A stretch of 64,000 bases of DNA from the NCBI GenBank assembly GCA_016932235.1, contig JAFGDF010000242.1, forward strand, positions 1 through 64,000. Reading direction: 5' to 3'. Within the stretch, counting starts at the first letter, position 1. Every line of letters starts with the position of its first letter. The translations under genes were made by a program, and so were the position numbers. The notes under the pieces were generated by a model, which saw only the letters and a program-made list of their open reading frames with translations, did not search any database and had not been told where the DNA came from. Below, piece by piece: positions 8,909 to 61,875 of the stretch. The stretch comes from Deltaproteobacteria bacterium. GTDB taxonomy: Bacteria; Desulfobacterota; DSM-4660; Desulfatiglandales; HGW-15.

Positions 8909-10948
8909 TTATTTTATCTGTTCATCATATCTGTATTTCAATCCGAAAGTTTCGACTTTCTCCTTCTTTCCCCTGATCTCCTGCATTCCCAGGCTATCGA
9001 CGGAATCACGATATGGATTTCCCTCATCAATCTTTTCCCACACGTCCCTGCTCATAATTAACGGATAATCCGGAAATACTTTAGTCAGTTCCTGGAGTCT
9101 GGCCGTGGTGTTGACCGTGTCACCAATTGCTGTATATTCCATTTTAGTCCTGGAACCGAGATTGCCTAATATGGCCTTTCCCGAATGGAGACCGATCCCT
9201 ATCTCCATGCGTTTATCCCCGAGGATGAACTTGCCGGTATGCTCAAGTATCCTGCATACGGATCGAAATCCCATCTCGATATGATTCTCAAGCGGTTCAG
9301 GAGCGCCGAAGATGGCTAAAAACCCATCCCCTGTGTATTTATTAATGTGGCCGTGTTCTTCGCTGATAATTTGAGAACATTCCTCAAAATATTTATTGAG
9401 AAGTGAAACAACATCCGCCGGATCCATCTCTTCAGAGCTTGAGGTAAATCCCCTGATATCCAGAAAAAGGGCTGTGATAAAAGACTCATCACCGCTGAAA
9501 AGGTCCACATCCCCCGATGAATAACGCTGTATGACGGAGGAAGGAACATATTTTTCAAACAACTTTCTGAGGTTCCTTTCTCGCGATTTACTTATTTGCA
9601 ACGCCTGATACGACATCGCATTATGAATGCTTATGGCAATCTGAGGGGCAATACCCATTAATAGCGATAGATGGCTCTCAGTAAGTGTCTTTTTTGACTT
9701 AAGGTTATCGACCATCAGCAGACCAAGGGAGTTTCTTTTAAAGACGATCGGAACACAAATAAAGGACTGGGATCCCATCGATCGCACAAAGTCGAGGCTG
9801 GCACCCGAAAGATTCCCCTCGATCTCCAGGAGATTATTGACCAGGTACGGCTTTCTCATTTTAAAGGCCTGAACCGCGACCCCCTTGGATTCAGGATTAT
9901 CCAGGCTGAAATGCTTTGATCTCAACAGGTTTTCCAGGTCGCTGTCATAGCCATAGCCGCATTTCCATACCAGGTTTTTCCGGTTCTTATCCGCCATCCA
10001 TATCCCGCCGCGATCAAAATCAAGCCTCTTTTCCATTACGCTTATAATGGATCCCAGGAGACGGTCCGTGTCCATAAGCATCGAGGTCGCCTGACCTATC
10101 TCTTTTACCAGTAGAGCGTTGTTATACCTTGTGTTGATTTCGTCCAGAAGATCCTTGGCTGCATTGCCTTGGGATTCAATAGAGGTTATAAGCTCGCGTT
10201 TTTCAAGGTGCTCTGAATAGAAAAAGAGGATTATTGTTATACACGCAAAGAATATTGTAAACGTTATCCATTTATTTAATGTGAAAATAAAAATAGATGA
10301 TAGTGATATAATTATGCTTAATAATAGGAAATATAAGCTGATTCTTCGCCATAAAACAGAAGGGGTTTTTGCCCATGTCACAATATATCTGCAATATTCT
10401 TGACCTTTATGCAGGCAGGAAGGGTGTTCAATACGCGCATACTCCCGGGTGAATAATTTTGCCAGTGATTCAAATATTCCTATTCGATTTTCACACTGAT
10501 AAGGCTTCTCGTTTACCCCAGGTTTGGGCGTGGATATGATCTCAACCTTGTTGGCGCCGAGTTTTTTTGTTTTGATAATCGCGGCGCGGCTTAGAATGGG
10601 ATAGAGCTTTTCCATGAGGAGATAAACAGAGACGGGGTTCATCAGACCCATTAAATATTGTCTCTGTACGCTCTGCGAAGAAACCGCATACCTTCCAGCT
10701 TTTCGGGGGATAGTCCTGTCACCGGTACTCTTTAGGACAAGTTCCGAAAAACGGTCTACCTGCCATTGACTGAACCAATGACCCGGATCTTCAATCTCGT
10801 ACGTGTTTATCCAGGACTGGGTCAGGATCTTATTTATATCCACCTCTGGATGATATAGAGATATATAATCCACAAATATCTGTATGATTTTACTGTTATA
10901 CAGGGGTTCATCAATCTTTGCCCCTGTTTTCTCTGGAGTAGGTTGCAT
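8909..10948 (-). CDS. Membrane-bound class III adenylate cyclase with V4R-like and GAF sensor domains
   Basis: The 679-aa protein has four parts. Residues ~1-190 resemble the V4R/haem-NO-binding-associated fold, ending in HPSCLHKGQEYCRYIVTW. Residues ~200-245 form two membrane segments. A GAF domain spans ~280-440. A class III cyclase domain spans ~475-650, with the metal aspartate in FLDIRGFTSSSE, NKYTGDGFLAIFGAPEP (substrate lysine and second metal Asp) and IGDTVNTTARLQEL. The Lys and Asp substrate-selecting residues point to ATP rather than GTP, so cAMP is the likely product. A neighbouring PilZ/GNAT-like gene lies upstream in the same direction. The V4R assignment is tentative; the cyclase domain is certain. 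Confidence 0.88.
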   Translation of the reverse strand: MQPTPEKTGAKIDEPLYNSKIIQIFVDYISLYHPEVDINKILTQSWINTYEIEDPGHWFSQWQVDRFSELVLKSTGDRTIPRKAGRYAVSSQSVQRQYLMGLMNPVSVYLLMEKLYPILSRAAIIKTKKLGANKVEIISTPKPGVNEKPYQCENRIGIFESLAKLFTREYARIEHPSCLHKGQEYCRYIVTWAKTPSVLWRRISLYFLLLSIIISLSSIFIFTLNKWITFTIFFACITIILFFYSEHLEKRELITSIESQGNAAKDLLDEINTRYNNALLVKEIGQATSMLMDTDRLLGSIISVMEKRLDFDRGGIWMADKNRKNLVWKCGYGYDSDLENLLRSKHFSLDNPESKGVAVQAFKMRKPYLVNNLLEIEGNLSGASLDFVRSMGSQSFICVPIVFKRNSLGLLMVDNLKSKKTLTESHLSLLMGIAPQIAISIHNAMSYQALQISKSRERNLRKLFEKYVPSSVIQRYSSGDVDLFSGDESFITALFLDIRGFTSSSEEMDPADVVSLLNKYFEECSQIISEEHGHINKYTGDGFLAIFGAPEPLENHIEMGFRSVCRILEHTGKFILGDKRMEIGIGLHSGKAILGNLGSRTKMEYTAIGDTVNTTARLQELTKVFPDYPLIMSRDVWEKIDEGNPYRDSVDSLGMQEIRGKKEKVETFGLKYRYDEQIK

Positions 10949-11040
10949 TAAATCATATCAAATTCAAAGGTGAACAGCATCATTCAGGTTGTCAAGCTTG
11001 GGTGAGGAAAACACGGGTTCAGGCAAAAGAGTACATATCC

Positions 11041-13143
11041 TTAATTTTTTTTAAAATAATTCATCCTGAATCTTTCATGCATATACTCCATGTATTCATT
11101 CCCATATTGCACATTCAGCACCCATAGTGTGTACAGTTTTTCAAAAGGGACATCATTTGCCCTGACATACTCGACCGGCGAGAAGAGCACCGGAACTCTG
11201 GTTATTTCAAACTCCCTTGTTAACTTTGAAATGGCAACCGAAAGCACATTCCAAGGCAGATCGGCGGATTTGACCACGATCACTGTAATCCCGCTCAATA
11301 ATTCCGACAGGTTTATGCCGAGATCCGACTGGTTCATAATGAAAACGGCATGTAGATCACCGTTCTTTAAAAGTGCGTAGGAATCGGATTTTCTCTTAAA
11401 TCCCAGTCGCGCATATATTTTTTCAAGCGGCTCAGTACCGTTTGTTTGCTGGCCGATTCCTATCGCATCGATAAGGAGACCGCCGGATATGTGTTTATAA
11501 TGCCTTTTGAGATTCCAGATATCCATAGGTGAACTTTTTATAAGGATCCAACCTTCCGGAAGATTGCTGTCAATAGAAAGTCTTGTATGCGGGAGGTAGG
11601 CAAAGATATCCGTTGAGCAGCCGTTCTTGTCATTTATCGCCTTTTCGAAACCGCCGAAGACCCTCTCCGGGAATCTGTTCTCAGGTCTGAAATACGCCAT
11701 CAGATAGTCCATTTTCGCTGAAGGCAGTCGATACATATCATTGATATAGTTAATGAATTGTTTTAATACGATAAAACCTGTGCGCTTATTCCCTATGCCT
11801 TTGGCCGCATGATGCTGGACCATCCAGGTTCGTTCATAAGCTCTTAACATGGAGATATGACCAAAGACCTTGCCATTTATCTGGTAGGTAAAATGTTTGG
11901 CGATCTCAGGGTTTTCCTGGTACAATTTTCTGTATGTCTCCTTAAAACTATTCCTGTGGGACTGAATAAGCCTGTATTTTTTCGGATAAATAAATCCCGT
12001 TTCAAAAAAGAATTCCCAGAGGGCATCCATATCAAGTTCGTTCGCGATATAACTGTCGGGTTCTATGATATTACACAATATCTGTGTAAGGCTGCTATAT
12101 GAATTAATATCCATATCAAGAATTGCAACTCCACATCTGACTTTATCGCTTTCTCGAATACAGTATATAACCTGAGCAGTACAGATAATTTTAAGCGTGC
12201 CCGGGAATTGAATGTTAAGCCTGGGTATAACCATTCCAGGCATAAGGACGCTTTCGTCCGGCTCTTCATATACCAGAAATCCTGAAGTCGACATGTCTCT
12301 GCACTTGAGTTCAATCCTTTTATCCAGTATGGGATGATCAAAAACAAGATTTGGAGAAGGGAGAATCTCGAGACGAATAGTGCGTGGCTGCTTTTTTTTA
12401 TATCTCTGAATCCTGTCATTTACAGGTGATAAAACGATTTCCATACTCTGATTTAGGCATTTTCTACGAATGTATCTGCATCTCCCCGAAAAAACAACCT
12501 GCTGACTTTTCTTCAGACAAATATTTACAGGTTCATCAGTATTTAACCAGCGAAAAGATGAATGGGGATCAGGATTAACAACGATCCGGAACCCAGCCGG
12601 ATTAAAATCCACCATCTCGCCTTCAGCAAAAAAACCGTTCTGTGATACCTCGGCTATAACATTATTGCATCTGTAACGCGTGTTTTCTCGCTGGCTTATA
12701 TGGTAACTTTTTTCAGATAATCGAAGCGATATTCTGTCTCTGTTTATTTCAATGGCTTTGGATGGAGAGAGAATCAGGGACTTACCGTCATCAATTGCCA
12801 AATACTGAAACCGATACTGATCGAGTTTAAGATGTTCAAAATTATCATCGCACCAATGGCATGTGAGTTCTTCTGAAAGACATGGTTCAGGAACGATTCT
12901 TACTATAATACTCTCCTCATACCTTGGGTCAAATAACCAGGCCATCATGCACTGGTCCGTAAAATGTATGTGATTGATGATATTAGTAAGGTTTTCTCTG
13001 TCTAACTCCCTGGTATGAACGCGAACGTCAATCAGATTCAGCTGTCTGAAAAGGGATGCGGGCAATAACGGTTCTTCATCATGACTTTTCCTGTCTCTTT
13101 CGTTGAAACCATGCATGGCTTTTATCGGCAGTCCTATTTCCAT
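11041..13143 (-). CDS. PilZ-repeat protein with a C-terminal GNAT-like region
   Basis: Large 700-aa protein, probably cytoplasmic. Around residues 150-260 a PilZ-type domain is suggested by QRENTRYRC and VDFNPAGFRIVV (RXXXR and DXXXXG elements of c-di-GMP binding). A second, weaker copy near 280-370 has RDMSTSGFLVYE. Residues ~380-560 look like an acyltransferase (GNAT) fold, including GHISMLRAYERTW and KGIGNKRTGFIVL. ATG at 13143 is preceded by AGGAGGCGG, a strong site. The function is not established; c-di-GMP control of a GNAT-like output is an inference. It lies between the cyclase and the MerR-like regulator. Confidence 0.7.
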   Translation of the reverse strand: MEIGLPIKAMHGFNERDRKSHDEEPLLPASLFRQLNLIDVRVHTRELDRENLTNIINHIHFTDQCMMAWLFDPRYEESIIVRIVPEPCLSEELTCHWCDDNFEHLKLDQYRFQYLAIDDGKSLILSPSKAIEINRDRISLRLSEKSYHISQRENTRYRCNNVIAEVSQNGFFAEGEMVDFNPAGFRIVVNPDPHSSFRWLNTDEPVNICLKKSQQVVFSGRCRYIRRKCLNQSMEIVLSPVNDRIQRYKKKQPRTIRLEILPSPNLVFDHPILDKRIELKCRDMSTSGFLVYEEPDESVLMPGMVIPRLNIQFPGTLKIICTAQVIYCIRESDKVRCGVAILDMDINSYSSLTQILCNIIEPDSYIANELDMDALWEFFFETGFIYPKKYRLIQSHRNSFKETYRKLYQENPEIAKHFTYQINGKVFGHISMLRAYERTWMVQHHAAKGIGNKRTGFIVLKQFINYINDMYRLPSAKMDYLMAYFRPENRFPERVFGGFEKAINDKNGCSTDIFAYLPHTRLSIDSNLPEGWILIKSSPMDIWNLKRHYKHISGGLLIDAIGIGQQTNGTEPLEKIYARLGFKRKSDSYALLKNGDLHAVFIMNQSDLGINLSELLSGITVIVVKSADLPWNVLSVAISKLTREFEITRVPVLFSPVEYVRANDVPFEKLYTLWVLNVQYGNEYMEYMHERFRMNYFKKN

Positions 13144-51561: not shown

Positions 51562-53280
51562 TCACCTTACCTCAACCCTGAACTGCACGTAGTGATATCC
51601 GCTGATCGTGGTATGTTCGATATGTGTGCCGACTTTCGCCAGCAGGGATAGCCCCAGTCTCTGTAAGTCTTGTTCGGACAATTTTTCCAGTTGTGCCGGT
51701 GCAGGGGTTATATCCACATCACTGAGGACGCCACAGGCGGATATTTCGGTGATGATATAATCGGGGTGGTATTTCCAGCAAAAAACCAGATTTGCAGTGT
51801 CTGGATTCTGCTGGCAAAAAAAGGAAAAGACCTCCTCGCAGGCGAGCTGGAGCGCATACTTCTGTTTTTCGGTCATGCGGAACCGATCCTGAAAGGTGTC
51901 GATTTTATGGTTCAGATCGGCCAAACGCTGGATATGGGCTGAAATGGACAGGGTTTCGGTTTTACGGATTTTGTAGATAAAAAAGATATTGAGAATCAAG
52001 GCTGAGAGCCCACCTAGGGTGAGGATGTCCGAAGCCATAAACCGGAATTGATCTGGAAATAGTTCGGGGAAAAATTTACCGATGCATGCCAGCAGTCCCA
52101 TGGTCAGGCCGGTTCCTATGACGATTCCATTTTCGGTGTTCACCTCTGCTGAGGCTGCAACCTTGAACCCCTCTCCAAACAGGATAACCATGAATCCGAT
52201 GGACATTCCTCCCATCACTGGGGCCGGGATGCTCAAGAAGAAATAGGCGATTTTGGGCAGGAAGGCTATCAGCAGCATCATCAGAGCGGCATAGTAACCG
52301 ACTACCCGTGCGGAGACACGGGTAAGCTGGATAACAGGCATCACAGTGCTATAGGTCGTGTTGGCGGTAACCCCTGAAAGACCTCCGAGCATGCTTCCCA
52401 CCGCGTCAACATACATCCCTCCCTGAATTCGGTCATACTTGATTTTATTGAATTTTCCCTCAGAAACAGACTGCAGGGCGACGGTATCTCCAAAGGTCTC
52501 GATGGTACTTGTGATGGTGGCCATCAGGAATGATATAAACAGGGGAATGTGCCGCCAGGACAGGTGAAGATCTAGTCCTGGCCAGCCTGATCCTGGCAAT
52601 GCGACAACCGGATATTCACTGATTTGTGAAAAATCAGCGATTCCAAAGCTAAACGCGGTAAACACGCCCAGCAGGACCCCGATAATCGGGCTCCACAGTC
52701 TGACCAATGCCCTGTCGCTGATACAGGAACCTAGGATGACCAGCATGGGTAACAGGCCGCTCAGAAAATAGGCCGGTGAGTTGTATAGGGGGTCATCCGG
52801 CTCACCAGACCACATGCCGATGGTCAGGGGAATAATGAGCATTGCCACCAGCATGATGACTGTTCCGCCCAGGGCTGGCGTGAAAATCTTACGCACAAAC
52901 CGGATGAGATAAGAGATCATGACTTCCAGCGGCGCTGAAAGCAGGGTCATGATCCCGAGAAGCGGCAAACCGCCCATATTCACCGCGTAGATACTGCAGG
53001 CGATGAATGCGCCGCTGGGTCCCAATATCATGAGGTAACCGGAGCCGATTTTCCCGACCTGGAAGACCTGGATAAACGTACTAATGGCGCTGACAAGAAG
53101 GGTGGCGAAGATAAAATACTCGGTTTGAGCCAAGTCCAATCCGCAGGCCCTGCTGATGATGATCGGCGTCAGCATCATGCTTCCGATGTTTAAAAGGGTA
53201 TACTGAAAGGCCAAAGAAACCGAGGTTAAGAAGGGAGGTTTATCATCGACGCCATAAAGTAAGGTGCTGTTTTTCCCCAT
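51562..53280 (-). CDS. Xanthine/uracil-type (NCS2) permease with C-terminal degenerate RsbW-like domain
   Basis: Residues ~1-440 are a 14-helix NCS2/NAT transporter: LLYGVDDKPPF at the start, ILGPSGAFIACS (~85), IETFGDTVALQSVSEG (~268), and a changed family signature in GVTANTTYSTVMPVIQLTRV (~306). The last ~130 residues form a soluble domain that resembles an RsbW/SpoIIAB HATPase: YALQLACEEVFSFFCQQ aligns with the N box, ISACGVLSDVDI with G1 and RLGLSLLAKVG with G2. The Mg-binding Asn and the G1 Asp are missing, so it is probably not a kinase. I chose ATG 53280 (GGAT ahead); 53328 is possible. Behind its own promoter at 53412-53440. Confidence 0.85.
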   Translation of the reverse strand: MGKNSTLLYGVDDKPPFLTSVSLAFQYTLLNIGSMMLTPIIISRACGLDLAQTEYFIFATLLVSAISTFIQVFQVGKIGSGYLMILGPSGAFIACSIYAVNMGGLPLLGIMTLLSAPLEVMISYLIRFVRKIFTPALGGTVIMLVAMLIIPLTIGMWSGEPDDPLYNSPAYFLSGLLPMLVILGSCISDRALVRLWSPIIGVLLGVFTAFSFGIADFSQISEYPVVALPGSGWPGLDLHLSWRHIPLFISFLMATITSTIETFGDTVALQSVSEGKFNKIKYDRIQGGMYVDAVGSMLGGLSGVTANTTYSTVMPVIQLTRVSARVVGYYAALMMLLIAFLPKIAYFFLSIPAPVMGGMSIGFMVILFGEGFKVAASAEVNTENGIVIGTGLTMGLLACIGKFFPELFPDQFRFMASDILTLGGLSALILNIFFIYKIRKTETLSISAHIQRLADLNHKIDTFQDRFRMTEKQKYALQLACEEVFSFFCQQNPDTANLVFCWKYHPDYIITEISACGVLSDVDITPAPAQLEKLSEQDLQRLGLSLLAKVGTHIEHTTISGYHYVQFRVEVR

Positions 53281-53411
53281 ATCATCCGATCTACTATCTA
53301 TAATGCCAAAATTCCACGGTGACCACATTAAGAGTTGCAGCAGAATAAGGAACGCTTATTGTATGAAAATATTATTTTGGTTTTGATAAGTACTTGCTTT
53401 TTGCTAAATGA

Positions 53412-53447: not shown

Positions 53448-54404
53448 CTAGATCTCTATCATCATACCGTCCCTGGCGACACTGACCCGGACGGTGCCCC
53501 CTTCGTGAAGCAGCGAGGCCAGTTTCTCAGAATCCTCGGAAAGTTTATCAAGGGCATCATCCCTTGCAACGGGATCCTGGTGGAAGAGACACAGATGTCT
53601 GACCCCAGCTTTTTGTGCCAGTTCGGTCCCTATCACGTTATTGGAATGCCCCCAGTCTTCCTTGACGGTCCAGGAATCAGCCAGTGTGTACTGGGCATCG
53701 AATATAAGCAAGTTTGCCGCTCTGAAGAATGCCACAAAGGGCTCCAGATCCTCCTGGCATTCATCTTTGTGCTCCGAATCGGTGGAGTAGACGACGGCCT
53801 TTCCCCCTCTTTCAATGCGATATCCGAAAGATATGCCCGGATGTTTCTGCTCCTTTGGGAGGATTCTGAAACCGGCAATATCATGCCAGCACCCTGGTGA
53901 CAGGATTTTAAATTCAATATCGGCTGCAAGGTCTTTGAGATCCACAGGGAACATGGGGATGCTCTGCTGGATGGAAAAGGCCTTCCTGACTTCGGGATGG
54001 CAGCTATAAATGGTGATTTTATTGCCCTCCAGGTACGCGGGAACAAAAAAAGGGAACCCCTGGATATGGTCCCAGTGGATATGTGAAAGGACAATGTGAA
54101 AGTTGCGCGGAGATGAAAATCCATAAGTTTTAATGAAGTTATTCCCGAAGTCCCGAAGCCCTGAACCGGCGTCAAACAGGACCGCATCGCCATCATCCCG
54201 TATTTCAACACAGGGCGTGTTGGTCCCGTAAGATCCACGGACCCAGAAGGGAAGTTTCTCATCCATAAACGCGTCAAGGTCGCTATCAGGACCAAGCCTT
54301 TCTTGAACGGCGATAACGAGGGCTGCCTTGACCTTCTTTCGAATATCCGCAGTGGCGAGGGAGGCGGGCAAGCCGCCTCTCGTCCCCCAGAATTGTACTT
54401 CCAT
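53448..54404 (-). CDS. Metallo-beta-lactamase-fold hydrolase
   Basis: A 318-aa protein. The metal-binding HXHXDH motif is VLSHIHWDHIQGFPFF (~105-120), with later ligands in VVYSTDSEHKDE (~207), DWGHSNNVIGTEL (~247) and LFHQDPVARDDALD (~273). It opens with VQFWGTRGG, as in RNase Z-like and phosphodiesterase-type members that cleave cyclic or phosphodiester substrates. In this cluster it could hydrolyse a small nucleotide signal, but that is a guess. GGGAGAA precedes ATG 54404. It follows the phosphatase gene by 41 nt. Confidence 0.85.
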   Translation of the reverse strand: MEVQFWGTRGGLPASLATADIRKKVKAALVIAVQERLGPDSDLDAFMDEKLPFWVRGSYGTNTPCVEIRDDGDAVLFDAGSGLRDFGNNFIKTYGFSSPRNFHIVLSHIHWDHIQGFPFFVPAYLEGNKITIYSCHPEVRKAFSIQQSIPMFPVDLKDLAADIEFKILSPGCWHDIAGFRILPKEQKHPGISFGYRIERGGKAVVYSTDSEHKDECQEDLEPFVAFFRAANLLIFDAQYTLADSWTVKEDWGHSNNVIGTELAQKAGVRHLCLFHQDPVARDDALDKLSEDSEKLASLLHEGGTVRVSVARDGMMIEI

Positions 54405-54445: not shown

Positions 54446-56374
54446 CTACATTTTGGCGTTATTTCCGAAATAGCTCAAAACCATCATAGTAATATCATCT
54501 GTCTGGGGAAGGTCCTGAGAGAATGCGCTTACGTTATCGATAATATTACTCACTATTTCGGGTAGTGTACATTTCCTCAAACATCTCAGATCCTTTTCCA
54601 GCCGTCCTTCCGAGTATAATTCATCAAGCTTGTCAGCGGCCTCGGTCACACCGTCCGTGTACAGAAAAATTTTGTCGCCGGCATTCAATTTAATCCTGTT
54701 TGATTTATATACAAAGTCTCCTACAATACCCAGCGCCATTCCATTTGTGGTGGGCAATGTCTCAATCCCTCCATCCGTTTTGATAAGATAGGGAGGATTA
54801 TGGCCCCCGTTGCAGTATTCCAGCTCACCGGTCTTCAAATCAAGTATCCCCAGGAATAACGTCACAAACATCAAAGAAGGATTATCTATTGAGAGGTCCT
54901 CGTTTACGCCTTTCAGTATTCTTTCTGCCGAGAGACCCTGGGTTCCTTTGTTCTTTATCAGTGTTTTGGTTATGGCCATGAATATTGCCGCGGGGACACC
55001 CTTGCCGGACACGTCGCCCACGGTGAAGCAGAGCCGATCTTCATCCATCAGAAAGAAATCGTAAAGGTCCCCGCCTACTTCCTTTGCAGGTAACAGGGTA
55101 GCGTATATATCGAATTCAGTCCTGCCTGGAAACGGGGGGAATTTTTTTGGAAGAATGCCCATCTGTATCTTGTGGGCAACCTTGAGATCGCTTTCTATCC
55201 TTTCTCTTTCAGCGGTAGCCTCTGTCAGCTCGACAATATACTTTTTAAGTGATGTCTTCATATATTCAAAGGACTCAGCGAGTTTTCCGACCTCGTCCCT
55301 TGAATTTATACGGGGAATCTCAATATCAAAATCCCCCGTGGCGATTTCCTCTAGCGCCCCGGAAAGCGCCCTTAACGGCCTGGTGATGGATCTGGCGATC
55401 CATATGGTAACGATCAGGATTATAAGAAATCCCAAGAAGCTTATATAGAGCACGGTATGGCTGAGGCGTGAAATGTCGGCCATCAGTTCATCCTGAGGAA
55501 AAAGTACGCCAAGAGACCATCCGTTGGATGACAGCGGAGTGTACACCATCCAGCATTCCTTATTCGTCATTATGCTTGTAAAAGGGGTAAATCCCGTGTT
55601 TCCCCTTATCATTTTCCTGCCAAGTTCCCGTATACTCTCATTCCCCATTGCCTCCGCCACACTGAAGATAGTCTCATTCATGACAAGGGCTGAATCAGGA
55701 TGAGTCACAAAAGTCCCGTTTCCGGAGAGTAAAAAACCATAACCGGTCTGACCGATTTTGATTGAAGAGATTATTTCCTGGAGCCACGAGAGAGAAATGT
55801 CTGCTGTAACCACTCCCATAAATACCCTTTTACCGTTGACAGCCTTGTAAAAGGGCATGGAATAGGTAACCATAATGATATTACCGGCACCCTTATCAAA
55901 ATAAGGCTCTGTCCAGGCCGGCCTGTTCAATTCCTTGGGTATCTGGTACCAGTCATGGTAGATATAGTCGTATGAAATGGATGTGGTAACAATATCATCT
56001 TTACTTCTGTAGACATACGGGGCAAAGCGTGGGGTGTTTACGTTGCAGGCGTATGGCTCAAAGGCGATGGTCGTGCCGTAGATCTCAGGATTATTTTTCA
56101 CCACCGATCGAAGAAGGTCAATCAATTCCGCTCCTTCCGGGTGCACATCCTCATAAAAATAGGCCAGGTTCCGCGGCACTTTTTCTACGGCCATGAGAAC
56201 CGTATCAATTCTGTTGACGGTTGACTGGGCAAGGTTTCTGGCATTTTTTTCCACATTTTCAGAAATAATCCTGCGTGAAAAAAAATAATTATAGGTGAAA
56301 ACAACAGAAAAAATAATCGTAATACTTATGAGTATGAGAAGAACTAGTTTTAAGGCTATTCCTCTATTTTTCAT
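54446..56374 (-). CDS. Cache-HAMP-SpoIIE (PP2C) phosphatase, RsbU-like
   Basis: The 642-aa membrane protein has an N-terminal helix (LVLLILISITIIFSVVFTYN, ~9-28), a periplasmic Cache-type sensor (~40-290), a second helix and a HAMP domain (ARSITRPLRALSGALEEIAT, ~325), then a SpoIIE/PP2C phosphatase. Metal-binding aspartates lie in AKEVGGDLYDFFLMD (~430) and CFTVGDVSGKGVPAA (~450), and later in TDGVTEAADK. RsbU-type enzymes dephosphorylate STAS-domain antagonists; the likely targets are the STAS proteins at 57017 and 59001. ATG at 56374 is used; GTG at 56383 is an alternative. Confidence 0.9.
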   Translation of the reverse strand: MKNRGIALKLVLLILISITIIFSVVFTYNYFFSRRIISENVEKNARNLAQSTVNRIDTVLMAVEKVPRNLAYFYEDVHPEGAELIDLLRSVVKNNPEIYGTTIAFEPYACNVNTPRFAPYVYRSKDDIVTTSISYDYIYHDWYQIPKELNRPAWTEPYFDKGAGNIIMVTYSMPFYKAVNGKRVFMGVVTADISLSWLQEIISSIKIGQTGYGFLLSGNGTFVTHPDSALVMNETIFSVAEAMGNESIRELGRKMIRGNTGFTPFTSIMTNKECWMVYTPLSSNGWSLGVLFPQDELMADISRLSHTVLYISFLGFLIILIVTIWIARSITRPLRALSGALEEIATGDFDIEIPRINSRDEVGKLAESFEYMKTSLKKYIVELTEATAERERIESDLKVAHKIQMGILPKKFPPFPGRTEFDIYATLLPAKEVGGDLYDFFLMDEDRLCFTVGDVSGKGVPAAIFMAITKTLIKNKGTQGLSAERILKGVNEDLSIDNPSLMFVTLFLGILDLKTGELEYCNGGHNPPYLIKTDGGIETLPTTNGMALGIVGDFVYKSNRIKLNAGDKIFLYTDGVTEAADKLDELYSEGRLEKDLRCLRKCTLPEIVSNIIDNVSAFSQDLPQTDDITMMVLSYFGNNAKM

Positions 56375-56443
56375 AGGTTTCACCGTACTCTCTGTAAAAG
56401 TCGGATAGGTCCGGAATTTTTCGCGACGAGCATGAGCGCGGAT

Positions 56444-56567: not shown

Positions 56568-56981
56568 CTATGACTGCCGCCTGAGAATCATGGTCAAAAT
56601 GTTCTGATTATCCTTTCGTTCATATTTAATCTCATCCATCAATTTTTTAATGAAAAATATACCCAGGCCTCCTGCTTTACGTTCCGACACGCCCAATGAG
56701 ATATCAGGATCCTCATGGGTAAAAATGTCAAAGGGTACGCCGCTGTCCGTAATCCTGATCATCAGATCATTCTTTCCGTCCATGATTAAAGAGATCTCAA
56801 TCTTTCCATCGGGATCATCCGGGTAGGCGTAATTACAGATGTTCACGACAGCCTCTTCGAGACAGAGGGTGATCCGGTCCGTCTGGCCTTTTGAAAATCC
56901 ATGTCCCTCCGCGAAGGCAGTTACAAATTCTATAAATCTGCCGAGGTTTTCAAGCCTTGCAGGCAAATTGATCCGATCCAT
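56568..56981 (-). CDS. RsbW/SpoIIAB-like serine kinase (anti-sigma-type HATPase)
   Basis: The 137-aa GHKL-fold protein has the N-box ITLCLEEAVVNICNYAYPDD (~42-61; Glu and Asn present), G1 IRITDSGVPFDIFT (~80) and the G2 loop AGGLGIFFIKKLMDEIKYER (~103-122). All nucleotide-binding residues seem intact. In partner-switching systems such kinases phosphorylate STAS antagonists. No sigma factor gene is nearby, so its usual partner may be something else. It sits between the STAS gene and the phosphatase gene. Confidence 0.92.
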   Translation of the reverse strand: MDRINLPARLENLGRFIEFVTAFAEGHGFSKGQTDRITLCLEEAVVNICNYAYPDDPDGKIEISLIMDGKNDLMIRITDSGVPFDIFTHEDPDISLGVSERKAGGLGIFFIKKLMDEIKYERKDNQNILTMILRRQS

Positions 56982-57016: not shown

Positions 57017-57349
57017 TTAAACTTTTAAAAGAGCGGTTTCCACGGATTCATATATAGGCAGTATGGCGCTGAATCCGGAAATCTCGAATACCTCCCTGAC
57101 CACATCTTTCAGGGACGTAAGGATGATATTACCGCCTTCTCCCTTTATCGTTTTTGAGGCTGAAAGCATGCTGCGAAGACCTGCGCTGCTTATGTAATCG
57201 AGACCGGATAAATCAATAATGATCAATTTTTCCTCCTTCCCTATTATCTCCCCGATCTCTTTGTCAAATTCAGTGGCGGTTATAGCGTCCATTCTTCCTC
57301 TGACCGTCATAATAACAACCTTTCCTTCTTTCCTGCTTGCTATCTCCAT
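57017..57349 (-). CDS. STAS-domain anti-sigma-factor antagonist
   Basis: A 110-aa single STAS domain: KVVIMTVRGRMDAITATEFD near the start and the phosphorylation-site loop IIIDLSGLDYISSAGLRSML (~43-62), in which the second Ser is the expected phospho-acceptor. The partner kinase gene lies 36 nt downstream, and the phosphatase follows. GGGGGGAAAA precedes ATG 57349. It is the switch protein, free or bound depending on phosphorylation. Confidence 0.93.
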   Translation of the reverse strand: MEIASRKEGKVVIMTVRGRMDAITATEFDKEIGEIIGKEEKLIIIDLSGLDYISSAGLRSMLSASKTIKGEGGNIILTSLKDVVREVFEISGFSAILPIYESVETALLKV

Positions 57350-57378: not shown

Positions 57379-58962
57379 TCAATTTATAATTGTCAGGCGA
57401 CCTTCAACCATTGGCTTCACTTTGCCAGCTTTTTCAATGTATTCCCGCAGCGCATCGGCATCCACAAATCCGGTGTCGGTTTTAGGCAGGTCTTTCAGCA
57501 TCGCATAGCCATCACCGCCTCCGCCCATAAAGTTATTCGTCACCACAGTATAGGTTTTTTCCAACTCAATAGGCGTATTACCCACCATCACATTTTCAGG
57601 AACTTTTTTGTTGTTGGTCCAGCTCAAACCTGAGACATGCAGGAATGCTCCCTGACCATCCTCAACCATTGCAGCATACGTAAGCAGTTTCATGATCTGA
57701 GCGCCCGTCATTTTTATAATCACAAGCGTATTACCGAACGATTGGACCGTCAAGAGATCACGATAGGTAATAGTGCCCGCCTCTATCGATGCACGGATAC
57801 CGCCGCCATTTTGGAAGGCAATGTCAGCTCCGGTTTTCACGCGCATCGCGTCGGTTATCAGGTTCCCCATGTTCGTCTCCTGTGAACGCACCAGCTTTCT
57901 GTCACCATCAAGCCTTAGTAATGCTTCGCCAATCGGCCGCGAGAGGAGTTCATCGGACCGGGCCAGGTAAGGTGATAACAGCTCAACAATCTGAGGATCT
58001 TCGACATAGGCTGTGCCGACATACATGTAGTAGTTTTTATCATTGTAAGTGATCCGTTTCGTTCTGTTCACGGGCAGTAGGTTGTAGGTATGCTCAGTCA
58101 CGGTATTTGCATCGCTGTCAACAGTCAAATCCAATCGGCCGACATATTTTCCGTATTCACCGGCCTGCACAATCAGGGTATTGCAAACAACTTCCGGTTG
58201 CTCCAGGGCGTCGTGTGTATGCCCGCCAACAATCACGTCTATGCCCTGAACGGCCCCGGCCAGCTCAACATCGCTCGTTGCATCAAAGCCTATATAACCA
58301 TATCCGCCTTCTTTAAACCCGAGGTGGGTCAGGGCGATAACGATGTCAGCTTCTCCACGCAACTTTGGCACCAGTATTTTTGCCGTATCAATGGCATTTT
58401 TGAATTCCAGATCTTCCACATACTCCGGCGTGGCTATGATCGGAACTTCTTCGGTCGTCAGGCCGAAAATCGCTACTTTTAAGCCCTCAAACTGTTTGAT
58501 GATATATGGTTCTACAAGGGGTTCCCCTGTGGCCTGATTTATAACATTTGCCGATAATAACGGAAATTCAGCCCATCCAATCTGTTTCAGCAGCACTTCT
58601 TTATAGAGTTTGTCAAATTCGTGATTCCCAAGCGCCATAGCATCATAGCCTATCATATTCATGGCCTTGAAATCAGGCTCGGCATCAAGCATATCCGATT
58701 CCGGAGTGCCCCGGTTTACATCCCCTGCTGAAAGCAGCAGTGTATGGCCGCCGGCTTCGGCAACTTCCGCCCTCACAATATTCACCAGTGTTGATTGGGC
58801 CGCCACTCCTCCCGTGTAATTGGAAGTCCTGAAATGTCCATGCTGATCGTTAGTGTGCAGGATGGTCAGCTTATAGGTTTTTGACAATGCCGCGGAGGAA
58901 AATACAAGCAGGGAAACAAGCACGAGGGTGATGATGAAGCGTAAAGGTTTCGAGATTTTCAT
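57379..58962 (-). CDS. 5'-nucleotidase / UDP-sugar hydrolase family, secreted
   Basis: The 527-aa precursor has a signal peptide (FIITLVLVSLLVFSSAALS, ~9-27). The metallophosphatase core shows LTILHTNDQHGHF (~32), LLLSAGDVNRGT (~75), MALGNHEFDKL (~112) and IVGGHTHDALEQP (~236). The C-terminal substrate domain has IAFQNGGGIRASI (~386) and GGGGDGYAML. It would release nucleosides from nucleotides in the periplasm, fitting with a purine-type permease in the same cluster. The coding position between STAS genes is unusual for this enzyme. Confidence 0.92.
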   Translation of the reverse strand: MKISKPLRFIITLVLVSLLVFSSAALSKTYKLTILHTNDQHGHFRTSNYTGGVAAQSTLVNIVRAEVAEAGGHTLLLSAGDVNRGTPESDMLDAEPDFKAMNMIGYDAMALGNHEFDKLYKEVLLKQIGWAEFPLLSANVINQATGEPLVEPYIIKQFEGLKVAIFGLTTEEVPIIATPEYVEDLEFKNAIDTAKILVPKLRGEADIVIALTHLGFKEGGYGYIGFDATSDVELAGAVQGIDVIVGGHTHDALEQPEVVCNTLIVQAGEYGKYVGRLDLTVDSDANTVTEHTYNLLPVNRTKRITYNDKNYYMYVGTAYVEDPQIVELLSPYLARSDELLSRPIGEALLRLDGDRKLVRSQETNMGNLITDAMRVKTGADIAFQNGGGIRASIEAGTITYRDLLTVQSFGNTLVIIKMTGAQIMKLLTYAAMVEDGQGAFLHVSGLSWTNNKKVPENVMVGNTPIELEKTYTVVTNNFMGGGGDGYAMLKDLPKTDTGFVDADALREYIEKAGKVKPMVEGRLTIIN

Positions 58963-59000: not shown

Positions 59001-61271
59001 TCAGGGTATGCATCTTTTTAATGACAAGACTCTTTCCGCAGTATCCGGGGCATGAAAAAAACTTGATATCCTTTCCAGCAGAATCGAAGCGGCCACCATT
59101 GAAAGCACCTTCCGGTTTATCGGCACTGAAAAACAGACGATGGGCAGGACCCATTCGATCAAGGCAAAATAGTATGGAATCATGTCTGTATTCCCCTCTA
59201 CACTGGCAAGGGCATAGCGTCTCATCTTCCGGCTTAATACAACGCATCGGTTTACCAATTCCGGTTTTTCCCCGCTGTAACTAATCTCGGGAGACTCGTT
59301 CAAAGAAATGGCATGGTAAAATTCAGTCAATAACTGGATGGATTCATGCAACTCCTTTTTTGTGTCAACCGGCATTGATTCAATCATGAAAATCGCCTCC
59401 AACCTGGCAAAATCGGACACGGCTGAACGGGGCATTGTTTCCGAAAAGTCGATCAGATATACATTCATGTTGTCATCGAGAAGTATGTTCCGCATGTTGA
59501 GGTCGCCATGACAGATCGATGTGTAATAATCAACGGTTGTTTCCCGCAATTCAGGGTAACGGTGTTTCAGATACCAATAGGGATTAAAGATTTTTACTCC
59601 GGTTTTCTGGAGCATGGCCTCGGGATCATCACATGAAACACCTGAAAAAGTTTCGGCTTTTTCGAAGATATGAGGGAAAAAGGTCAGGGAAGGATCATGT
59701 TCTCTGAATGGATGGATGGTCCCTTTTGCCGACTGGCCATACCAGGGTTTGAGAATTTGGAGAAATATCTTATCGAAAAGCGGTTCAAGCCGATCAACAG
59801 GCCATTCCTGAAATAGTTGGGTAAGCCACTTCAACCTTGTCTCCTCGCCGCTGATCCCGACAAAGTTGTAGCGCAGGGCCCCAATATCACCGCAAAGCTC
59901 CGTTCCAAGAACCATGGCGCTGTTATTCATGATGAATGGGAGCGCATACTTCCGACACCGTTCGGCTTCACGGGTGATCATCTCTCCGGGTCCAATTTTC
60001 AGGACGGTCGGTCGCAGCTTCCGGCCCTGTTGATCGAATGATTCAACCTGAAAGGTCTGCGCCGCGTAACCTCCGTGCAGGGCCTTCACAACCAGTCTCG
60101 ATGAATCGGCATACAAACGTCTCGTCAGGAACGGCTTTTGGGGCGGATGTTCAAATCCCTCAGGAGAATCGATTCGAATACGCTGAATCGTGGCATCCTC
60201 GGTCTGGTTGGCCGTGAACAGCCAAGCCACCGGCAGGGTCACAGATATCAAATATCCTGTTGCCCTCGCCTCGATGATGTTTTCGAAAGTCATGGCCTCG
60301 TTTAACTGGTTAACAGGATCGTTTCCATCCATTGATCGATCAAGCCCGGCAAGCCTGTACTCAAAACAACCTGCCTGACGATCTGACGCTCTGAAAAAGG
60401 GATGGTTGATCAGTTCAAACGGATGATCAGTCAGTTCCCGGTCAAGTCCCCGGGTCAACAGCCCCGTGATGACAGACGGCTCATCCTGGTCGTAATTGAA
60501 TAAGATGAATGAAGCCAGTTTGGATTCAGGAAAATAATGAGCAATAATTTTTTCGATATGACCTAACATCTGTTCAAATGGAATGGGATCAGCCCGTCGT
60601 GTAGTGATCTGACATGTCGGTGTATGTCCGAAAGACACTGCTTCAGCCACCATAATGCCTGTTTGAGATGGATGATGGGACAGCCGGAAATCACAGGTCA
60701 GATCCTTATCATCGGGTAAAAAGATGGCACTATTGAAGGTCGTTAAAAACATCCCCGTCAAGTCGGTATTTTCATCAATCCGGCCTATGCCAAATGCCAG
60801 ACCAAGCTCGTTGTAGGCGGCCAGACCTTGCCGGTGCCATATTCTGGCTGTAATGCCTTCATTTTTTAACAGGGATATATCATAGGTTATTTCATCGAAC
60901 TCCATACTGCTTGAGAATGAAGCAGATTGCCGGTGTTTCTCAATCCATGCTACGGCCTGTTCTTCCGTATCTACGATGTGAAAAATATTTTGAAGTCCCG
61001 CCACTTCTATTACCTGAACCATGCCGGCCGGCATTCCGAAAATGATCAGGGATCCCTTTCTCTGGGCCAGGATTTTCGCTGTTATGAGAAGTGAACGAAT
61101 ACCCGAACTGGACAGGTAGGGACATTTTGAAAAATCGGCTGCAATAAAATCCTTGTTGTCAATGATTGGTTGGATATCATGCTCGAATTGTGCACTTGTA
61201 ACGGTGTCGAGTCGGCCATGAACCTGGATAATGGTCAGGTTGCCGTATTCTTTTATGCTGATTACCTTCAT
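59001..61271 (-). CDS. STAS domain fused to a large protein with a C-terminal APH-like kinase domain
   Basis: The 756-aa protein begins with a STAS domain: IIQVHGRLDTVTSAQFEHDI (14-33) and SKCPYLSSSGIRSLLITAKI (48-67) with the acceptor Ser. Residues ~125-330 have no recognised motif. From ~400 the protein is kinase-like: VLKIGPGEMITREAERC (ATP lysine region), catalytic HGDLNMRNILLD (~611-622) and metal-binding VYLIDFSETMPRSA. This resembles the APH-type ternary-complex-associated kinase families. ATGA overlap with the Cache gene ahead. Probably a switch protein that joins STAS control to kinase activity. Confidence 0.78.
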   Translation of the reverse strand: MKVISIKEYGNLTIIQVHGRLDTVTSAQFEHDIQPIIDNKDFIAADFSKCPYLSSSGIRSLLITAKILAQRKGSLIIFGMPAGMVQVIEVAGLQNIFHIVDTEEQAVAWIEKHRQSASFSSSMEFDEITYDISLLKNEGITARIWHRQGLAAYNELGLAFGIGRIDENTDLTGMFLTTFNSAIFLPDDKDLTCDFRLSHHPSQTGIMVAEAVSFGHTPTCQITTRRADPIPFEQMLGHIEKIIAHYFPESKLASFILFNYDQDEPSVITGLLTRGLDRELTDHPFELINHPFFRASDRQAGCFEYRLAGLDRSMDGNDPVNQLNEAMTFENIIEARATGYLISVTLPVAWLFTANQTEDATIQRIRIDSPEGFEHPPQKPFLTRRLYADSSRLVVKALHGGYAAQTFQVESFDQQGRKLRPTVLKIGPGEMITREAERCRKYALPFIMNNSAMVLGTELCGDIGALRYNFVGISGEETRLKWLTQLFQEWPVDRLEPLFDKIFLQILKPWYGQSAKGTIHPFREHDPSLTFFPHIFEKAETFSGVSCDDPEAMLQKTGVKIFNPYWYLKHRYPELRETTVDYYTSICHGDLNMRNILLDDNMNVYLIDFSETMPRSAVSDFARLEAIFMIESMPVDTKKELHESIQLLTEFYHAISLNESPEISYSGEKPELVNRCVVLSRKMRRYALASVEGNTDMIPYYFALIEWVLPIVCFSVPINRKVLSMVAASILLERISSFFHAPDTAERVLSLKRCIP

Positions 61272-61780
61272 AGGTAGTATCCGCTACCGACAATCCATCC
61301 GAATGGTTCAAACAGGAGCACATAGGATCGCTTGGGTTGCTCTGTGGTTTGGCCCTTCTTCGGAAACCAATATTCGACATAACCGCCGCCGGCCTTACCT
61401 TTTGCCACGAATTCCTTTACGTAAAATGTGCCCTTTTGGTCCTTGTCTTCCAGCCGATTCCGTCCCTCCACATCTTTTCGACCGTAGAGAACCACGTTGA
61501 CGCCTTCCATTGTATCGGCCCAGAAATACCCGTCGGTCCCATACCGAAGCTCCCGCAGGAGGTCGGCTCCAAGCTCCTTTGCCTTCTCAAGTGTCATTGC
61601 CCCCTGTTTATGCTTGGTAAAGACGGTTCGAAGCATACTGACCGCAGTTTCGACTTCACTCTTGACGAGCATGTCCTGAGCCGATAAATTTTCCTGTTTA
61701 TGATATTGTGCTCCGGCAGATAGACCCAGAAACTCCACACTCAGAACGACTATACACAGCATCATCAATAGCCGTTTCAT
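61268..61780 (-). CDS. Secreted single-Cache-domain sensor protein
   Basis: The 170-aa protein has a signal peptide (LLMMLCIVVLSVEFLGLSAG, ~4-23). The Cache-2 hallmark LRYGTDGYFWADTMEGVNVV is near residue 77, and PFGWIVGSGYYL closes the protein. There is no output domain, so it acts as a periplasmic ligand-binding module. ATG 61780 follows GGAGGAG at 6 nt. Its stop overlaps the start of the STAS-kinase gene. In such clusters a free Cache protein may feed the membrane phosphatase, an inference. Confidence 0.86.
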   Translation of the reverse strand: MKRLLMMLCIVVLSVEFLGLSAGAQYHKQENLSAQDMLVKSEVETAVSMLRTVFTKHKQGAMTLEKAKELGADLLRELRYGTDGYFWADTMEGVNVVLYGRKDVEGRNRLEDKDQKGTFYVKEFVAKGKAGGGYVEYWFPKKGQTTEQPKRSYVLLFEPFGWIVGSGYYL

Positions 61781-61875
61781 ATATTCTCCTCCTTTATCGC
61801 TTTCAATACCCAATATGAAAATCAGCGCCTTTGCTGCCGCTCTTTGCTCGTCGGGGTAGCTGTTACATTTAGTTG

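Follow-up and report, generated by a model that had tools for sequence, protein, structure and literature searches.

A membrane carrier of the NCS2 type fused to a degenerate RsbW-like domain and its possible link to a partner switch

Introduction

On the minus strand of a 64,000-nucleotide stretch from a Deltaproteobacteria bacterium (contig JAFGDF010000242.1; the window, by which we mean this whole stretch), a gene running from 53280 to 51562 encodes a 572-residue permease, to which the residue numbers below refer. The question raised by this locus is why a membrane carrier should end in a domain that resembles the kinase of an anti-sigma switch. An earlier note, made from the sequence alone, had read the protein as a purine-type permease whose degenerate RsbW-like domain might serve only as a docking surface for a STAS protein. 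STAS domains occur in anion carriers as well as in anti-sigma switches, and why they occur in both is, to our knowledge, an open question. A conserved, inactive GHKL partner on carriers would offer a direct test of crosstalk between carriers and partner switches.

The C-terminal tail

We are highly confident that the permease consists of an NCS2 carrier core fused to an RsbW-like tail of the GHKL fold. The tail forms a separate domain after the core (residues 436-572; 51565..51975, minus strand). AlphaFold models were made of the full permease and of the tail separately, and structure comparison identified the predicted tail as a GHKL fold of the HATPase_c_2 type; the VIA-align list used here is a re-examination of Foldseek's own hits. 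Profile comparison matched the tail to RsbW (6m36, E 7.1e-6). The Pfam profile PF13581 gave 11.9 bits on the window tail, below its gathering cut-off of 27.4, which was passed by two of ten relatives scanned (P0024, 35.8 bits; P0018, 28.3 bits). At E <= 0.1, PF13581 matched 27 of 37 family tails, and the RsbW protein of the window, used as a query against the tails of the relatives, matched best to P0020 (E 1.9e-10). The central claim of the earlier note is thus backed by structure, profiles and conservation: the GHKL fold is present in the prediction, and the tails of homologous permeases are not unrelated to it. One might argue that the tail has nothing to do with RsbW and that the three motif matches first noticed by eye are coincidental, given that BLASTP of the window tail against the window RsbW returned no match and that Pfam makes no call of an RsbW-type domain in the window permease itself; we find this hardly credible. 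The Pfam scan detected no STAS domain in the permease. DUF3874, the top weak Pfam match of the window tail (E 0.003), was present in one of the 37 family tails and was taken as chance.

All three boxes of the kinase can be located in the tail. The N-box helix (residues 471-491; 51808..51870, minus strand), which is helical in the model, keeps Glu482 and Glu483 and has Phe487 in place of the Mg-binding Asn. The G1-box equivalent, ISACGVLSDVD (residues 513-523; 51712..51744, minus strand), has Ala515 in place of the ATP-contact Asp, and the G2-box equivalent, LGLSLLAK (residues 542-549; 51634..51657, minus strand), has lost the glycine that precedes the RsbW box. Conservation was counted in 130 aligned rows, comprising 79 of the 80 loci kept from a scan of representative genomes that gave 157 relatives (L011, with a masked tail, was left out) and 51 of 72 homologues (P0064 was set aside, and the others fall short of 540 residues); the rows are unweighted and redundant, 67 tails being left at 70% identity. 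Glu is kept at position 483 in 129 of the 130 rows, Asn is found at position 487 in P0040 only, and Asp occupies position 515 in 34. Both replacements named in the earlier note are present in the window permease, and the Mg-binding Asn has been lost across the whole family. The preserved fold and N-box Glu pair speak for a selected, non-catalytic role of the tail. We infer from these residues that the tail, a pseudokinase of the RsbW/SpoIIAB kind, no longer phosphorylates.

Alternatively, the old ATP pocket might bind a small ligand, such as a nucleotide or a nucleobase without Mg, and regulate the carrier allosterically in cis. The retained N-box Glu is consistent with such a role, as is a 5'-nucleotidase gene near the fusion in the window, in the near relatives L133 and L134, where it precedes the fusion together with a gene for a VWA protein, and in L007, where it lies 5 kb from the fusion. 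We regard this explanation as improbable, however, because the Asn site is changed in 129 and the Asp site in 96 of the 130 rows.

Distribution of the fusion

The earlier note had proposed a search for the same fusion in other genomes, and it was found in many bacterial phyla. The reading frame continues past the core into the tail in the 79 loci with readable sequence; L030 ends at a contig edge. The hosts are mostly metagenome-derived genomes, and their labels include Delongbacteria, Desulfoferrobacter, Roseivirga, Opitutales, Clostridia, Chloroflexi, Nitrospirota, Gemmatimonadota, Acidobacteria, Rhodothermales, Dadabacteria, Latescibacterota and Proteobacteria. Within a group the fusion is sparse: in the order of L008 it was found in one of 194 genomes, the seed itself. 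As a novelty, the fusion has to be described with more reserve than in the earlier note, since it is widespread and precomputed annotation already places PF00860 and PF13581 together in 13 of the 72 homologues; what stands is that no paper describing an NCS2 carrier with an RsbW-like domain was among the matches listed in the open-access literature. Where sources name the close relatives at all, which is seldom, they call them xanthine/uracil permease, xanthine permease XanP or hypothetical protein.

Two types of tail were distinguished among the 80 loci. Type A, the window-like tail, comprises 25 loci (L001-L022, L025, L029 and L069), and type B comprises 55; the window tail alone, used as a query, matched 23 of the 80 at E <= 1e-3. 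In a tree of 67 core sequences, the 40 type-A and type-B rows form one clade (SH-aLRT 100). A third, more divergent type of NCS2 tail, type C (L119, L120, L121, L124, L127, L131 and P0061), adjoins this clade and is intermixed with three tail-less rows; PF13581 matched L120 (E 5.5e-5) and none of the five other type-C proteins scanned. One fusion followed by losses and two separate fusions are both possible origins.

The carrier core

The NCS2/UraA-fold core (residues 1-432; 51985..53280, minus strand) was recognised by PF00860, which matched residues 21-398 (E 6e-49) with 167.2 bits against a cut-off of 27. The NCBIfam model TIGR00801 (ncs2) scored 191.1 bits, below its curated cut-off of 291.8. 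The AlphaFold model of the full-length permease, based on a 29-row alignment, has a mean pLDDT of 86.7, and Foldseek found its core to resemble UapA (5i6c, E 1.6e-17) and UraA, with further matches to prestin, SLC26A11 and SLC26Dg. A longer open reading frame starting at 53328 is possible, although three close homologues share the 53280 start instead.

Three motifs serve as criteria for canonical NAT carriers in PMC5972032. The motif of transmembrane segment (TM) 8, E-x-x-G-D, is intact in the window permease (ETFGD, residues 261-265), whereas the Gln-His motif of TM1 reads Q26-Y27, with His found in 23 of the 130 relatives. The TM10 signature region, NTTYSTVMPVIQLTR (residues 307-321; 52318..52362, minus strand), reads T-V-M-P-VIQL-T-R in place of Q/E/P-N-x-G-x4-T-G/R/K. 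The permease therefore shares with UapA, UraA and XanQ the PF00860 domain and the TM8 motif, and with UapA and UraA the core fold, but it differs from them in TM1 and TM10; the solved UraA chains, at 407-410 residues, have no tail comparable to that of the window permease. Loss of the TM10 signature means that the substrate cannot be assigned from the motif, which gives no support to the term "purine-type" in the earlier note, and that a changed substrate or a sensing role is possible. For annotators, the point is that these "xanthine permeases" have lost residues that the name relies on.

The first position of the TM10 signature is Q or E in 14 of 20 tail-less rows, in contrast to three of 24 type-A, none of 16 type-B and none of seven type-C rows. 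One interpretation of this distribution, and of the retained TM8 motif, is that the core no longer transports and instead senses an external ligand, the tail passing on the signal through capture or release of a STAS protein. Such a transceptor would retain the docking step and reverse the flow of information. However, the six tail-less rows without Q or E (L122, L128, L130, L155, L156 and the long-branched P0069) indicate that the loss follows lineage and not strictly the tail, and a changed substrate would explain it equally well. We think it quite unlikely that the core is a transceptor. In type-C rows, the Glu of the TM8 motif is mostly Lys (five of seven).

Partner-switch genes in the window

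The permease gene is the last of seven genes in a row on the minus strand. The first encodes a STAS protein with a kinase-like C-terminal TCAD9 (ternary complex associated domain 9) region (59001..61271; PF01740 E 3.8e-14, PF19974 E 2.1e-37), followed by a UshA-like 5'-nucleotidase (57379..58962; PF02872 E 3.8e-40), a single-domain STAS protein that is a candidate partner of the tail (57017..57349; PF01740 E 3.3e-22), an RsbW-like kinase (56568..56981; PF13581 E 1.3e-29), whose N-box, G1 box and G2 box are complete by eye, and a dCache-HAMP-SpoIIE (PP2C) phosphatase that is a candidate input to the switch (54446..56383; PF07228 E 4.5e-48, PF22673, PF02743 and PF00672). A metallo-beta-lactamase-fold hydrolase (53448..54404; PF12706 E 4.1e-17) lies between the phosphatase and the permease. 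The gaps from the STAS-TCAD9 gene to the permease gene are 38, 29, 35, 184, 41 and 167 bases. By eye, the RsbW, STAS and phosphatase proteins look intact.

The mechanism that most simply accounts for the observations reported here is that the tail acts as a STAS docking site that couples the carrier to the partner switch. The RsbW kinase and the dCache-PP2C phosphatase would set the phosphorylation state of the STAS protein, and the pseudo-RsbW tail would provide a fixed site at which one form of that protein, encoded either at 57017 or, as STAS-TCAD9, at 59001, could dock. Its binding might gate, tether or read out the carrier, and the coupling could run from carrier to switch or in reverse. 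The carrier would then probably act together with the ATP-binding cassette (ABC) importer that, in other genomes, is linked to the STAS protein described in the next section. We hold docking to be a serious possibility, falling a little short of probable.

The known systems offer partial parallels. The anti-sigma kinases SpoIIAB, RsbW and UsfX (PF13581) differ from the window tail, which is fused to a membrane carrier and has the Mg-binding Asn and the ATP-contact Asp replaced. SiaB is a free, active kinase, and the SiaB-SiaC kinase/STAS pair (6kko) likewise differs from the carrier-fused, degenerate tail. The SLC26/SulP carriers are similar in having a related transporter fold and a C-terminal domain from the partner-switch toolkit, but the tail of the window permease is a GHKL domain, from the opposite side of the pair, and its core is of the NCS2 type. 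What appears to be new is that a carrier bears a switch domain at its C-terminus, as in SLC26-STAS, but of the opposite partner and in pseudokinase form. The occurrence of the same fusion in many phyla suggests that a switch for gene regulation may act directly on a transporter.

Other loci and the STAS-X protein

Switch genes also accompany the fusion elsewhere. In L010 (Syntrophobacterales), SpoIIE, RsbW and STAS genes lie beside the fusion, within 4 kb. In L011, an RsbW-like gene is divergent from the permease gene at a distance of about 76 bases (the two genes occupy 9283-9906 and 9983-11548), both being partly masked. In L008 (Roseivirga), the fusion ends a run of genes in line that begins with one for an ABC_sub_bind protein and continues with those for a 406-residue protein that we call STAS-X, an ABC permease and an ABC ATPase; PP2C and RsbW genes lie 8-10 kb farther on. 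In L005 (Methylococcaceae), the STAS-X and ABC genes are divergent from the fusion. The opitutal genome G007 carries RsbW, STAS, STAS-X and dCache-HAMP-SpoIIE genes together, with the fusion on another contig.

STAS-X proteins consist of a STAS domain and a domain X, which had no Pfam match in the three proteins scanned, and are mostly about 405 residues long; those of L008 (1316-2533) and L005 (1998-3254) are 37% identical over 391 columns. Other STAS-X genes are in L138-L150 and L152 (none was recognised in L151). They adjoin the ABC_sub_bind importer: in 15 of the 16 loci examined, L150 being the exception, an ABC_sub_bind or ABC permease gene is next to STAS-X, and an ABC ATPase gene is in the same stretch in ten. 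Binding and permease domains of this importer are often in one chain, mostly of 940-980 residues (Pfam check, L141). We found no description of a STAS-X/ABC-importer operon.

Among the first 25 genomes, matches reaching domain X were found in six of 17 type-A genomes (partial in G007 and G024), as compared with none of eight type-B genomes. The association was examined further in 247 genomes from the phylum of G006, the Desulfoferrobacter genome carrying L006. STAS-X (E <= 1e-22) was present in 13; a permease match at E <= 1e-60 was found in 18, and the type-A fusion, defined by E < 1e-160 and a positive tail profile, in six, five of which also have STAS-X. Fisher's test, which ignores kinship, gave p = 1e-6 for the whole set and p = 1.6e-5 once the seed G006 was excluded. 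The one type-A genome without STAS-X, G258, has a tail shortened by a stop (534-residue frame). The operon thus tracks with the fusion in one phylum. Of five readable genomes with a type-C fusion, one (G233) has STAS-X; L123, L126 and L132 were unread or incomplete.

Some gene neighbourhoods, namely the row in the window and those of L010, L008 and L005, agree with a docked STAS partner, as does the co-occurrence with STAS-X. Several observations weigh against docking. Searched with the window STAS queries, the fetched flanks contain a STAS gene in only three of 25 type-A loci (L005, L008 and L010) and two of 55 type-B loci (L039 and L058). The 25 fusion-family genomes yielded 135 STAS matches in 87.6 Mb, or about 1.5 per Mb, and on this informal comparison the type-A flanks show a modest excess over the background. 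STAS-X is found without a detected type-A fusion in eight of 13 genomes of the G006 phylum and seven of eight of the G007 phylum, and thus functions independently of the fusion there. Two of the genomes, G223 and G260, carry tails that are almost the same and do not count as independent cases in the Fisher test. In 240 genomes of the G007 phylum, 15 matched at E 1e-60 and, of the best ten loci, the seed alone was positive for the tail profile, so that the link could not be tested there. Nor could domain X be recognised in the 59001 protein of the window: its BLASTP matches cover mainly the STAS domain, the X profile gave 3.4 bits over 46 residues, and hhalign gave no match. Finally, GHKL domains also dimerise without a STAS partner.

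The last point leads to the main rival, that the tail serves a structural or dimerising purpose and holds together or stabilises a carrier dimer, the STAS neighbours being incidental. NCS2 carriers and RsbW-type proteins both dimerise, and few residues are invariant in A3 (the Glu pair, one Leu and one His). With the window STAS queries, no STAS gene was detected in the fetched flanks of 53 type-B loci out of 55, or of any of the ten type-A loci from Chloroflexi (L015-L022, L025 and L029). This is what the explanation would lead one to expect, and it fits the type-B loci better than docking does. A precedent comes from bacterial SLC26 carriers, whose STAS domain is reported in PMC8256260 to be required for stability and function. 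On the other hand, dimerisation does not predict the co-occurrence of STAS-X in type-A genomes or the common gene rows of L008 and L005, and we consider it unlikely, though it deserves weight. One could also envision a third class of partner-switching output, in which membrane carriers are the direct target and the tail receives dephosphorylated STAS or STAS-X, coupling a carrier or sensor to the ABC importer of the STAS-X operon. Such an arrangement would mirror SLC26-STAS and let the GHKL-STAS pair act without any sigma factor; it is conceivable and, on balance, doubtful.

Other features of the window

As regards possible purine sensing by the dCache-PP2C protein, the purine motif of McpH places a Phe 27 residues and an Asp (or Asn) 29 residues behind its Trp (PMC11245519); read by eye, the protein of the window appears to have Val and Tyr at these places. 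Scans of the window for promoter-like and terminator-like sites gave 17 and 16 sites, as compared with 16.1 and 11.0 in shuffled sequences, and were given no weight. The 59001 protein, the first of the permease row, has weaker kinase-like APH matches and an unassigned middle region besides its STAS and TCAD9 domains. Directly upstream of its gene is that of a small sCache_2 protein (61268-61813, minus strand), whose start looks signal-like by eye. The adenylosuccinate lyase gene purB (PF08328; 49974-51326, plus strand) is convergent to the permease gene and would form a purine theme with the 5'-nucleotidase gene at 57379, although the presence of purB is possibly incidental.
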